IMG/VR virus record: IMGVR_UViG_3300031565_000012
Span: 1-64,000 of that record
Reading direction: 5' to 3' (one strand)
Origin: a virus
Length of the DNA: 64,000 bases
Of the stretch, positions 53,575 to 62,160 are shown piece by piece. The first letter of the stretch is position 1. Each line of letters opens with the position of its first letter. The notes beneath the pieces are model-generated. The model saw only the letters and a list, made by a program, of their open reading frames with translations. It was not told where the DNA came from and searched no databases. A program made the position numbers and the translations under genes.

Positions 53575-54009
53575 ATGCATATTGAGAAGCTGAGTAAGAG
53601 CAAGTTTATATCGCCACGTAACACGCGGGGGGTGGCTACAATCAGTTTTTACCACAAGGGAGAGATCCATCTGAGTAGAAACACGGTACGGCAGCTAGGC
53701 CTCTATGACATCATAAATAACGAATTTTCCTCGGTGTCGGTGTTTGTCGATACGGATGAGCATACGGAATCGGACTTCTTCATCATGCGCGATGACACTG
53801 ACGGGTGGTGTCTCCGCAGGGCTTATGGTGGTGGTGCGGTGTTCAATAGCTGTGAACTAGCACGTCATGTTATACAAAAGACATGGGAGTGCAACCGTCA
53901 CCTGGCAAACGAAGATATGCCACGTAAGATGATCTTCCGCATAGCCTCCCTCCCCGTTGATGATGATAAAAATAAAGATGTGTACGCACTGTTAAGAAAA
54001 AAAGAATGA
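53575..54009 (+). CDS. Hypothetical protein upstream of the methyltransferase
   Basis: 144 residues, beta-rich (FISPRNTRGVATISFYHKGE; FIMRDDTDGWCLRRAYGGGA) with a helical end. ATISFYHKGEIHLSRNTVRQ recalls the strand-loop-strand of swapped-hairpin DNA-binding domains, but weakly. It overlaps the methyltransferase start by ATGA, so the two are translationally coupled. Confidence 0.55.
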   Translation: MHIEKLSKSKFISPRNTRGVATISFYHKGEIHLSRNTVRQLGLYDIINNEFSSVSVFVDTDEHTESDFFIMRDDTDGWCLRRAYGGGAVFNSCELARHVIQKTWECNRHLANEDMPRKMIFRIASLPVDDDKNKDVYALLRKKE

Positions 54010-54962
54010 ATTTTAAACATGCAAGTCTTTTCACCGGAATTGGTGGTTTTGATCTGGCTGCCGAATGGATTGGATGGGAGAATATATTCCAAGTCGAAAA
54101 TGATCCATTTTGTAATACTAAGTTAATAAAGAATTTCCCAAACATAAAAAGATATGGAGACATCAAAGAATTTGACGGAACAGAATATCGGGGAATCATT
54201 GACATTCTCACAGGCGGGTTTCCCTGCCAGGGGTTCAGTGTTGCCGGGAAGCAAAGAGGCAAAGATGATCCTCGCTGGCTCTGGCCGGAAATGTTACGAG
54301 TTATACGGGAAATACAGCCCCCTTGGGTTGTTGGTGAAAACGTTCCTGGAATCATCGAACTGGCACTCGAAGATATATGTGCTTCGCTGGAAAGTGAAGG
54401 CTATGAAGTCCAGCCGTTTATTATTCCATCTGCGAGCATCGGAGCATGGGACAAAAGGGATCGGGTCTGGATCATTGCTTACTCTGACAGCAACAGAAAG
54501 ATGGTGCAAGGACGAAACAGAAATAGTGATAACAAAAAACGGAACGGCAAGAAGAAAATACAAGAATGGGAAAACAAGCAGTTTGGGTGTGTCAAGCCAA
54601 ATTCAAAGATCCCTGCCGACATTAAGAAGTCAGGAATCAGGAAACTATCAATACAGCAACGGGGACAAGACGAGATCGAAAACATTAACCCTGACAGGGA
54701 AATTGAAATCAATAACGACATTATCAGCAAGGGATTACAAGGATACTCCCGGAATGGCTTATCAAGTAGGCAAAAGGAACAGGAGAGACAGACCGGGCAT
54801 GCAAATTGGTTACGAAACTGGATTGAAGTTGCATCCGAACTTTGCGGAAGTAATGCAAGGGTTCCCCATAGGATGGACAAAATAAAGGCATTAGGTAACT
54901 CAGTTAATCCTTATGTACCATACCAAATCTTTAAAGCAATAGAAGAATTTGTCTTTAATTAA
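54006..54962 (+). CDS. DNA (cytosine-5) methyltransferase
   Basis: 318 residues. Motif I is LFTGIGGFD (8-16). Motif IV, GGFPCQGFSVAG, holds the catalytic Cys74. Motif VI is GENVPG (110-115) and motif VIII RDRVW (151-155). Motifs IX-X are RVPHRMDKIKALGNSVNPYV near the end. Residues about 160-285, where the target-recognition domain should be, are Lys/Asn/Glu-rich and unlike a folded domain. That stretch is covered in the +1 frame by another long ORF (54154-54885). The enzyme would methylate phage DNA, probably against host restriction. Confidence 0.9.
   Translation: MNFKHASLFTGIGGFDLAAEWIGWENIFQVENDPFCNTKLIKNFPNIKRYGDIKEFDGTEYRGIIDILTGGFPCQGFSVAGKQRGKDDPRWLWPEMLRVIREIQPPWVVGENVPGIIELALEDICASLESEGYEVQPFIIPSASIGAWDKRDRVWIIAYSDSNRKMVQGRNRNSDNKKRNGKKKIQEWENKQFGCVKPNSKIPADIKKSGIRKLSIQQRGQDEIENINPDREIEINNDIISKGLQGYSRNGLSSRQKEQERQTGHANWLRNWIEVASELCGSNARVPHRMDKIKALGNSVNPYVPYQIFKAIEEFVFN
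54154..54885 (+). CDS. Overlapping +1-frame protein embedded in the methyltransferase gene
   Basis: 243 residues entirely inside the methyltransferase gene in the +1 frame. SQAGFPARGSVLPGS, GSGRKCYELYGKYSPLGLLV, SSNWHSK and RLLFHLRAS near the front, TGIGSGSLL-like (KGIGSGSLLTLTATE) in the middle, ARDYKDTPGMA and the end LHPNFAEVMQGFPIGWTK are features I recall from a widespread phage protein family found with cytosine methyltransferases. The absence of stops over 243 codons and these motifs argue for real coding. Translation could start at the internal ATG or by frameshifting. Function unknown; it may alter target recognition. Confidence 0.6.
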   Translation: METSKNLTEQNIGESLTFSQAGFPARGSVLPGSKEAKMILAGSGRKCYELYGKYSPLGLLVKTFLESSNWHSKIYVLRWKVKAMKSSRLLFHLRASEHGTKGIGSGSLLTLTATERWCKDETEIVITKNGTARRKYKNGKTSSLGVSSQIQRSLPTLRSQESGNYQYSNGDKTRSKTLTLTGKLKSITTLSARDYKDTPGMAYQVGKRNRRDRPGMQIGYETGLKLHPNFAEVMQGFPIGWTK

Positions 54963-58392: not shown

Positions 58393-58608
58393 ATGGCAGA
58401 AGTAAAAAATTTAATGGAAGGATTACTCGAAGAAATGAATCGAGCAAGGGAAATGATTACAGAATATCGTTCACTGCCCAAAAATGCGGGTATGTTCACA
58501 TCCGTAATGATACAAAGGGATATTACCCGTGCTGAAAAGGCAATAGCGAGTGGAGACACCATTCAAATGATCGCATCTTTAAAATTACTTAAAGAATATG
58601 AAGCATGA
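58393..58608 (+). CDS. Small helical protein
   Basis: 71 residues, helical throughout (EGLLEEMNRAREMITEYRSL; ITRAEKAIASGDTIQMIASL). It overlaps the radical SAM gene by ATGA, so the two are coupled. No family recognised. Confidence 0.55.
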   Translation: MAEVKNLMEGLLEEMNRAREMITEYRSLPKNAGMFTSVMIQRDITRAEKAIASGDTIQMIASLKLLKEYEA

Positions 58609-59453
58609 AAGTGTTAAGAATATTCCCAAGAAAGACAAAAGCAACACCAATTGATGAGAATGTAATTATTAATCGCATGCCTGATCTTTTTGATGTAGCG
58701 GATCAGATTCATATATCTGTGGCTTTTACATGGGATATTCCAATCGCAGAAAAATTATATCAGGGATGGAAGGGTGTTGCTCCTGTTAAGATTGGAGGAC
58801 CAGCATTTAATGAAGTTGGTGGAGAATTTGAACCGGGTATGTATATTAAAGAAGGATATACAATTACTTCAAGAGGATGCCCAAACAAATGTTGGTTTTG
58901 TTCAGTATGGAAAAGAGAATCTGAATTAAAAGAATTAAAAATAAAGTCCGGATGGAACGTAATTGATGATAATTTACTTGCTTGTTCTGATCAACACATA
59001 AAAGATGTTTTTGAAATGTTAAGAAACCAAAAACAACCTGCAATATTTAGCGGTGGTATTGAAGCAAAGATATTAAAACAATGGCATATTGATTTATTTA
59101 CATCCATTAGGCTTAAAGAACTGTTTTGTGCCTACGACACACTTGATGATTATGAACCACTGATTGAAGCTGGGAAAATGTTTAAAGAAGCAAATATCAC
59201 TTTGGAGAACAGGAAGGCTAGAGCTTATGTTTTGATTGGATATCCAAAAGATACTATTGAAAAAGCAGAAAAAAGAATTAATCAAACAATTAGGGCAGGA
59301 TTTTTCCCTTTTGCAATGCGTTATCAAGATAAAGATGGTGTTGTATTGAAAGAAAGAAAATGGAATTTATTTCAACGTGAATGGGCAAATCCAATTATTA
59401 TAGCAGCTAATTGTAAAAAAATTAACACGTATAAATTTAGTATTAACGAATAA
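58605..59453 (+). CDS. Radical SAM enzyme
   Basis: 282 residues. YTITSRGCPNKCWFCSVWKR holds the CxxxCxxC cluster (C92, C96, C99) that binds the 4Fe-4S cluster and S-adenosylmethionine. The first 80 residues (LRIFPRKTKATPIDENVIIN; GVAPVKIGGPAFNE) look like a cut-down B12-binding-type front. Downstream strands KQPAIFSGGIEAKI, LFCAYDTLDDYEPL and ARAYVLIGYPKDTIE fit the TIM barrel. Substrate unknown: possible roles are base or tRNA modification or metabolite chemistry. No partner gene is evident. Confidence 0.85.
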   Translation: MKVLRIFPRKTKATPIDENVIINRMPDLFDVADQIHISVAFTWDIPIAEKLYQGWKGVAPVKIGGPAFNEVGGEFEPGMYIKEGYTITSRGCPNKCWFCSVWKRESELKELKIKSGWNVIDDNLLACSDQHIKDVFEMLRNQKQPAIFSGGIEAKILKQWHIDLFTSIRLKELFCAYDTLDDYEPLIEAGKMFKEANITLENRKARAYVLIGYPKDTIEKAEKRINQTIRAGFFPFAMRYQDKDGVVLKERKWNLFQREWANPIIIAANCKKINTYKFSINE

Positions 59454-61452: not shown

Positions 61453-62160
61453 ATGTGGAGCTATTACGGAGCAAAAACGAATATAGTTAAATTTTATCCT
61501 GCACCAAAGCACGATAAGATAATTGAGCCCTTTTGCGGTACCGCTCGTTATGCTTTGAGATATTTTGACCGAGATATTTTGATTGTTGATAAATACGATG
61601 TTATAATTAAAATTTGGCAATGGTTGCAAAAATGCTCCCCCCAAGATATATTATCTCTACCGAGATTTAAAGCCGGCGAAAATATTAATAATTATACTTA
61701 TGATTGTGAGGAACAGCGTTTATTGATAGGATTTACAATAGGATTTGGATTTTATGAACCCCGTCATTTAGCAACAATCAGATTAAGAGATAGGCCAAAT
61801 CATCAAAACTATGCGTTGAATAAAATAGCATCTCAATTATGGAAAATTAAACATTGGAATATACGATTAGGCTCATATGAAAGTATTGAAAATGAAAACG
61901 CTTCTTGGTTTATTGATCCTCCTTATAAAATAGGAGGGCATGTTTATAGGTGCAATAATAAGCAAATAGATTATTCCCATTTAGCAGAATGGTGTAAATC
62001 AAGAATTGGTCAAACAATTGTATGTGAACACATAGGGGCTGATTGGTTAAATTTTATTCCGTTTGTAGATCAAAATATTAGAACGGGACAATTTAAAGAA
62101 GGTATATGGTCCAATGAAAAAACGGAATATGATAATATCCAACAAAAACTTGATTTATGA
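61453..62160 (+). CDS. D12-class DNA adenine N6-methyltransferase
   Basis: 235 residues. SYYGAKTNIVKFYPAP (binding start), IIEPFCGTARYALRYF (motif I, SAM binding) and ASWFIDPPYKIGG (motif IV, DPPY at 155-158) are diagnostic for D12-class (Dam-type) enzymes. The C-terminal half holds WCKSRIGQTIVCEHIGADWL. It would modify adenines of phage DNA, complementing the cytosine enzyme at 54006. Its AT-rich codon use differs from both neighbours, as in an acquired gene. Confidence 0.9.
   Translation: MWSYYGAKTNIVKFYPAPKHDKIIEPFCGTARYALRYFDRDILIVDKYDVIIKIWQWLQKCSPQDILSLPRFKAGENINNYTYDCEEQRLLIGFTIGFGFYEPRHLATIRLRDRPNHQNYALNKIASQLWKIKHWNIRLGSYESIENENASWFIDPPYKIGGHVYRCNNKQIDYSHLAEWCKSRIGQTIVCEHIGADWLNFIPFVDQNIRTGQFKEGIWSNEKTEYDNIQQKLDL

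Follow-up and report, generated by a model that had tools for sequence, protein, structure and literature searches.

A stretch of phage DNA annotated as a cytosine methyltransferase gene appeared to carry a second long open reading frame in the +1 frame, and the question raised by this locus was whether that frame is translated into a protein of its own and, if so, which part of the enzyme it supplies. The window analysed was 64,000 nt long (positions 1 to 64,000 of IMG/VR record IMGVR_UViG_3300031565_000012) and is part of a 77.6 kb virus record. C5-cytosine methyltransferases made of two polypeptides are already known, among them M.EaeI and M.EcoHK31I, whose small gene lies within the large one in a different reading frame. 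In M.EcoHK31I, motifs I-VIII and X are carried by the large polypeptide and motif IX by the small one, and a predicted recognition domain was reported in the large subunit (PMC3404938). M.AquI is split after motif VIII, and its small subunit contains the recognition sequence and motifs IX and X (PMC3404938).

Two reading frames at one locus

Both open reading frames named in an initial annotation of the window were found (54006-54962, and 54154-54885 with 243 codons; Table 1), and its paired readings of the shared DNA, GGFPCQGFS/AGFPARGSV and RVPHRMDK/GFPIGWTK, were correct on translation. The product of frame 0 (318 aa) is referred to as alpha and that of the +1 frame (243 aa) as beta. That one phage gene encodes two proteins in different frames was confirmed.

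Table 1. Features of the nested locus in window coordinates.
Feature	Position	Strand	Evidence
alpha CDS, frame 0; catalytic subunit with motifs I-VIII and X	54006..54962	+	PF00145 5.6e-46; phrog_363 4e-70; AlphaFold mean pLDDT 73
beta CDS, +1 frame, nested in alpha; presumed target-recognition region and motif IX	54154..54885	+	phrog_1008 4.3e-16; stop depletion; dN/dS; motif IX alignment; homology to fused actinophage enzymes
Overlap constrained in both frames; alpha motifs III-VIII over beta N-terminal extension	54154..54486	+	dN/dS alpha 0.33, beta 0.80 (0.72-0.87); beta stops 1 vs 336 expected, 91 genes
Motif IV with catalytic Cys; alpha GGFPCQGFS, beta AGFPARGSV	54213..54239	+	Translation; GxPCQ invariant in 13-sequence alignment A2
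Variable region; beta-coding (LPTP-like modules), out-of-frame linker in alpha, predicted disordered	54487..54825	+	dN/dS alpha 1.37, beta 0.32; alpha pLDDT low
Motif IX in beta, KLHPNFAEVMQGFPIGWTK; frame-0 reading ..CGSNARVPHRMDK	54826..54882	+	hhalign; dN/dS 0.52/0.51, constraint in both frames
Motif X in alpha, ALGNSVNPYVPYQIFKAI; C-terminal helix	54885..54956	+	GN invariant in alignments A2 and A6; pLDDT 92-93

Elsewhere in the window, a weak match to phrog_56 (DNA methyltransferase, 1.6e-7) at 61453-62160 possibly marks a second methyltransferase of the same phage, and a radical SAM domain protein was found at 58605-59453 (phrog_9298, 8.1e-21).

Both frames are kept open across homologues

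Viral homologues (80) were fetched by the methyltransferase frame alone, so that nothing was selected for the +1 frame. The +1 open stretch in the window was 245 codons long; synonymous shuffles of the alpha frame averaged 74 (p = 0 of 200). In nearly all viral homologues the length of the +1 ORF was ~2-4 times that in synonymous shuffles; the +2 frame was ordinary in length by the same test. Stops were counted over 91 genes, with expectations taken from the synonymous-shuffle null. In the +1 frame, 1 stop was seen over motifs IV-VIII (336 expected) and 0 over the variable region (229 expected); upstream of the beta start there was no depletion (301 seen, 209 expected), and depletion set in at the beta start codon. 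Comparable depletion was absent from the +2 frame in every region of the 91 genes. In the reverse test, in which beta codons were shuffled synonymously, frame-0 stops numbered 0 vs 345 expected in the first region and 0 vs 479 in the variable region. With no or almost no stops in either direction of shuffling, the overlap as a whole is held open in both frames. The initial annotation had named stops or a lack of conservation in the +1 frame of homologues as evidence that would count against it; almost no such stops were seen, and constraint on that frame was present.

An ATG for beta was located ~10-25 codons upstream of motif IV in most genes. No Shine-Dalgarno sequence was found upstream of the beta ATG of the window, nor of most others, and across the set one preceded beta in 10 of 87 genes (3.1 expected).

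Constraint passes from one frame to the other

Substitution rates and overlap-aware dN/dS were obtained from 27 independent homologue pairs. Substitutions at frame-0 codon positions 1/2/3 were 0.11/0.08/0.40 in the single-coding N-terminus, 0.19/0.11/0.35 in the catalytic overlap, 0.40/0.16/0.13 in the variable region, 0.23/0.11/0.20 at motif IX and 0.12/0.08/0.45 in the single-coding C-terminus. Over the same five regions, dN/dS was 0.19, 0.33, 1.37 (1.17-1.62), 0.52 and 0.17 for alpha and 1.31, 0.80 (0.72-0.87), 0.32 (0.27-0.39), 0.51 and 1.37 for the beta frame. By this relay, constraint on beta is weak in the catalytic part and strong in the variable region, and at motif IX it is shared with alpha. 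The per-frame comparison of synonymous and nonsynonymous rates suggested by the initial annotation thus favoured beta in the variable region, with the relation reversed at the single-coding ends. Since its variable region is unconstrained, alpha alone lacks a conserved recognition domain. Codon choice in alpha follows the needs of beta: an invariant alpha Leu was encoded by TTG or CTG in 87 of 91 genes, giving Trp in beta, a conserved Ala by GCT in 81 of 86 and a conserved Gly by GGG in 80 of 81.

These data bear on two alternatives. The first, that the +1 ORF merely reflects codon usage or conserved methyltransferase sequence, can be dismissed almost entirely. Strong frame-0 conservation over motifs IV-VIII does yield some apparent +1 similarity, but the synonymous-shuffle nulls contradict this explanation, the constraint tests refute it, with +1 constraint peaking where frame 0 is unconstrained, and nine typical (canonical) plasmid methyltransferases had no such beta ORF.

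The second holds that programmed ribosomal frameshifting yields a single enzyme, the ribosome slipping +1 past motif VIII and returning to frame 0 ahead of motif X. The regional switch of constraint seen over the variable region and motif X is what this fusion predicts, and single-frame fused relatives exist (below). It would, however, require two shifts and need the second frame only downstream of the first, whereas the +1 frame was stop-free and constrained over motifs IV-VIII, from its own conserved ATG, upstream of any shift. Frame 0 was also open through the variable region, and Shine-Dalgarno sequences ahead of beta exceeded expectation. Because both frames are open over the whole overlap and stop depletion starts at the internal start codon, a programmed-frameshift fusion is unsupported, and we regard it as very improbable. 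The initial annotation had left open a frameshifted fusion or a true second protein; the latter was upheld by the constraint, the separate ATG and the match to phrog_1008, and the former was not. In simple formal terms, the layout corresponds to a +1 frameshift following motif VIII, compensated by a return shift between motifs IX and X.

Division of the methyltransferase motifs between alpha and beta

In alpha, motifs I (LFTGIGGFD), IV (GGFPCQGFS, with PCQ), VI (GENVPG, with ENV) and VIII (RDRVWIIA, RxR) were found in order, followed by motif X (GN[SA]V) as ALGNSVNPY with an invariant GN. A crude motif IX pattern occurred in 0 of 92 alphas, so that motif IX is not on the same chain as the other C5 methyltransferase motifs. 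AlphaFold predicted a confident catalytic fold for alpha (residues 1-160, pLDDT mostly 80-98), a stretch at residues ~195-296 that is probably disordered (pLDDT mostly 29-55) and a confident final motif X helix. The mean VILMFYW content of the alpha frame across the family fell from 0.35 in the catalytic part to 0.18 at residues 160-285, the segment that had been described as low-complexity; the low pLDDT at 195-296 agrees with that description.

HMM searches of both frames, also proposed in the initial annotation, assigned alpha to PF00145 and phrog_363 and beta to the phage family phrog_1008 (beta residues 11-242 to profile positions 33-279 of 329). The +1 frame had been noted as conserved-looking, which its constraint, its freedom from stops after a conserved ATG and this family match bear out. 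The GFPIGWT-ending proteins had been described as common near phage methyltransferases; they do form a phage family, but in the window's group they are always nested rather than merely near. Beta had no match in Pfam or NCBIfam, and a PDB sequence search with the beta profile returned chance matches only. Modelled alone in AlphaFold, beta had a mean pLDDT of 57, and a Foldseek search of the model against the PDB gave nothing at E<=0.001.

The beta profile aligned with canonical methyltransferases at motif IX only (KLHPNFAEVMQGFPIGWTK vs LLTTNECKAIMGFPENFVI), over 18-19 columns, with an hhalign score of 29.7 vs a maximum of 18.3 in 100 column shuffles. Four outliers near 130 among 40 shuffles of an initial null were gone once the null was restricted to well-filled columns and were therefore put down to gappy columns. 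A slightly loosened motif IX pattern was found in 74 betas, and tblastn of beta returned 69 phage records.

Nested, side-by-side and fused relatives

Relatives of the nested arrangement were found in phages and prophages whose hosts span many bacterial phyla; most of them bear the annotation of a single ordinary enzyme. In Paenibacillus larvae phage Shelly both CDS of the nested pair are annotated (gp55/gp56), the second as 'g55 internal gene', and its beta matched phrog_1008 at 8.2e-74. Alpha was present in frame 0 at 18 of 18 beta-selected loci of bacterial genomes (mostly Bacteroidota, with a Burkholderiaceae bin and a Parcubacteria bin) and at 25 of 25 loci fetched by phrog_1008 (~20 distinct genes; ~500 genomes searched). 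A cyanobacterial plasmid enzyme (locus L100) also carried the alpha/beta pair. An E. coli counterpart sought by distant blastn with one stretch around a proteobacterial pair was not found.

In the actinophages Samy, Eesa, Abidatro, Taquarus and Mordred the two parts lie side by side, beta being a separate downstream +1-frame gene with motifs IX and X. In Samy and Eesa, alpha ends after motif VIII and is followed by a +1-frame phrog_1008 protein with LPTP modules, motif IX and motif X; on PF00145, Samy alpha covered positions 2-160 and Samy beta, weakly, 270-322 (E=0.2). In Ritam007 gp68, PFR1 Orf45 and Spartoi gp40, alpha, the beta part and motif X are fused in one frame, with beta-profile positions ~115-241 between motifs VIII and X; Ritam007 gave adjacent matches of the alpha profile (5.4e-54) and the beta profile (8.5e-13). 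From these fused and split actinophage forms it follows that beta, from about residue 114 on, shares ancestry with that part of a single-chain enzyme which holds the recognition region and motif IX. The initial annotation had hinted at a second recognition domain; in keeping with this, motif IX is in beta, and the homology places the region between motifs VIII and IX there as well. The N-terminal ~110 residues of beta, over the catalytic domain, had no counterpart in the fused enzymes and look like overprinting on the catalytic domain.

An unrelated origin of beta as a true overlapping protein, e.g. a de novo phage factor with no connection to the recognition part, was weighed against this homology. 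It would fit the lack of a Pfam family, the N-terminal extension that the fused enzymes lack and the weak fold prediction. It is nevertheless unlikely: motif IX is in beta and absent from alpha, the beta part occurs fused in the same frame between methyltransferase motifs VIII and X, alpha and Samy beta match phrog_116 and PF00145 co-linearly, beta without alpha was never found in the nested group, and the variable region of alpha is unconstrained.

In a tree with the nine canonical plasmid enzymes, those alphas whose genes contain a nested beta were placed on one side of a branch with support 99/99. When actinophage enzymes were added, support of the nested-gene branch was 50/66, and fused and split forms interleaved.

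Several variants were observed. At L122 (2441-3220), the beta of the Parcubacteria bin has an additional LPTP module 5' of motif IV, mirrored by an insertion in alpha, and LPTP modules may move as units. Arthrobacter phage Mordred gp81 (L160, 700-1977) has only a hypothetical-protein annotation; it is a beta of 425 residues, rich in LPTP modules, and adjoins its alpha (gp80). In deep-sea phage KM23-C739 (L015, 1737-2591) a stop interrupts the beta frame past motif IV and a new ATG follows; this beta lacks most of the N-terminal extension, and the annotation gives two methyltransferase pieces. At L008 (1349-2296) a ParB-like ORF is fused in frame to the alpha 3' end with the beta 3' end alongside, a recombination or deletion product in which the catalytic part was lost. 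Two canonical single-chain plasmid methyltransferases, from Carnobacterium (L104, 1495-2910) and Enterococcus (L106, 1468-2820), have +1 ORFs of 165 and 182 codons that cover the catalytic region only and lack the beta motifs; 0 of 200 synonymous shuffles were as long, and these ORFs are perhaps a relic or another overlapping gene.

Discussion

The locus very probably encodes a two-subunit C5 methyltransferase, a single enzyme whose two proteins are read from one DNA stretch in different frames. We infer that beta is translated from the same message as alpha, from the internal start at 54154. Alpha would fold the catalytic domain (motifs I-VIII), run through the variable region as an out-of-frame, disordered linker and end in the motif X helix. 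Beta would supply the small domain, comprising the presumed target-recognition region and motif IX, which single-chain enzymes have between motifs VIII and X. Together, alpha and beta would form an active, sequence-specific C5-cytosine methyltransferase, probably an orphan phage enzyme that shields phage DNA from restriction.

By published motif layout, the division of motifs between the chains is the same in M.EcoHK31I as in alpha and beta. The recognition domain predicted for M.EcoHK31I is, however, reported in its large chain, perhaps not a defining feature of this type of enzyme, whereas here the variable region is constrained in beta and predicted to be disordered in alpha. M.EcoHK31I is also part of a restriction-modification system, and no restriction gene was identified among the neighbours scanned in this analysis. 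M.AquI shares the split after motif VIII and a small chain with recognition region and motif IX, and the split actinophage relatives share its full layout; the window differs from the M.AquI type in that motif X is in alpha rather than in the small subunit and the genes are nested one inside the other. Shelly gp55/gp56 is the same nested pair as in the window but is annotated without function or mechanism, and no analysis of it was found in the literature searched. Ritam007 gp68, PFR1 Orf45 and Spartoi gp40 likewise join an alpha catalytic part to a beta recognition and motif IX part, but as one polypeptide in one frame and without the beta N-terminal extension. Beyond mentions of M.EcoHK31I, nothing was found in the literature searched on a methyltransferase with an overlapping gene. 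What is new here is the breadth of the arrangement, the constraint relay and the evidence for recognition in beta; the breadth, the relay and the existence of nested, side-by-side and fused architectures appear to be undescribed in the literature searched.

In prokaryotes it is rare for long genes to be nested on one strand with selection demonstrable in both frames, and at this locus the division of labour between the frames can be read region by region. On balance we favour the view that nesting of two genes is an ancient architecture common to the phage C5 methyltransferases of this group, with catalysis and motif X in one frame and recognition and motif IX in the other. Recognition would then evolve as the +1 frame acquires and loses LPTP modules, with no demand on frame 0 other than staying open, and many 'single-chain' enzymes would be half a heterodimer. 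Many phage 'DNA methyltransferase' annotations would accordingly cover the catalytic half alone, so that cloning alpha from a codon-optimised gene would destroy beta, and the resulting enzyme would be inactive or lack specificity. For naturally split C5 methyltransferases, structure and specificity become testable, and it would be easier to extend their application as split enzymes in targeted methylation.
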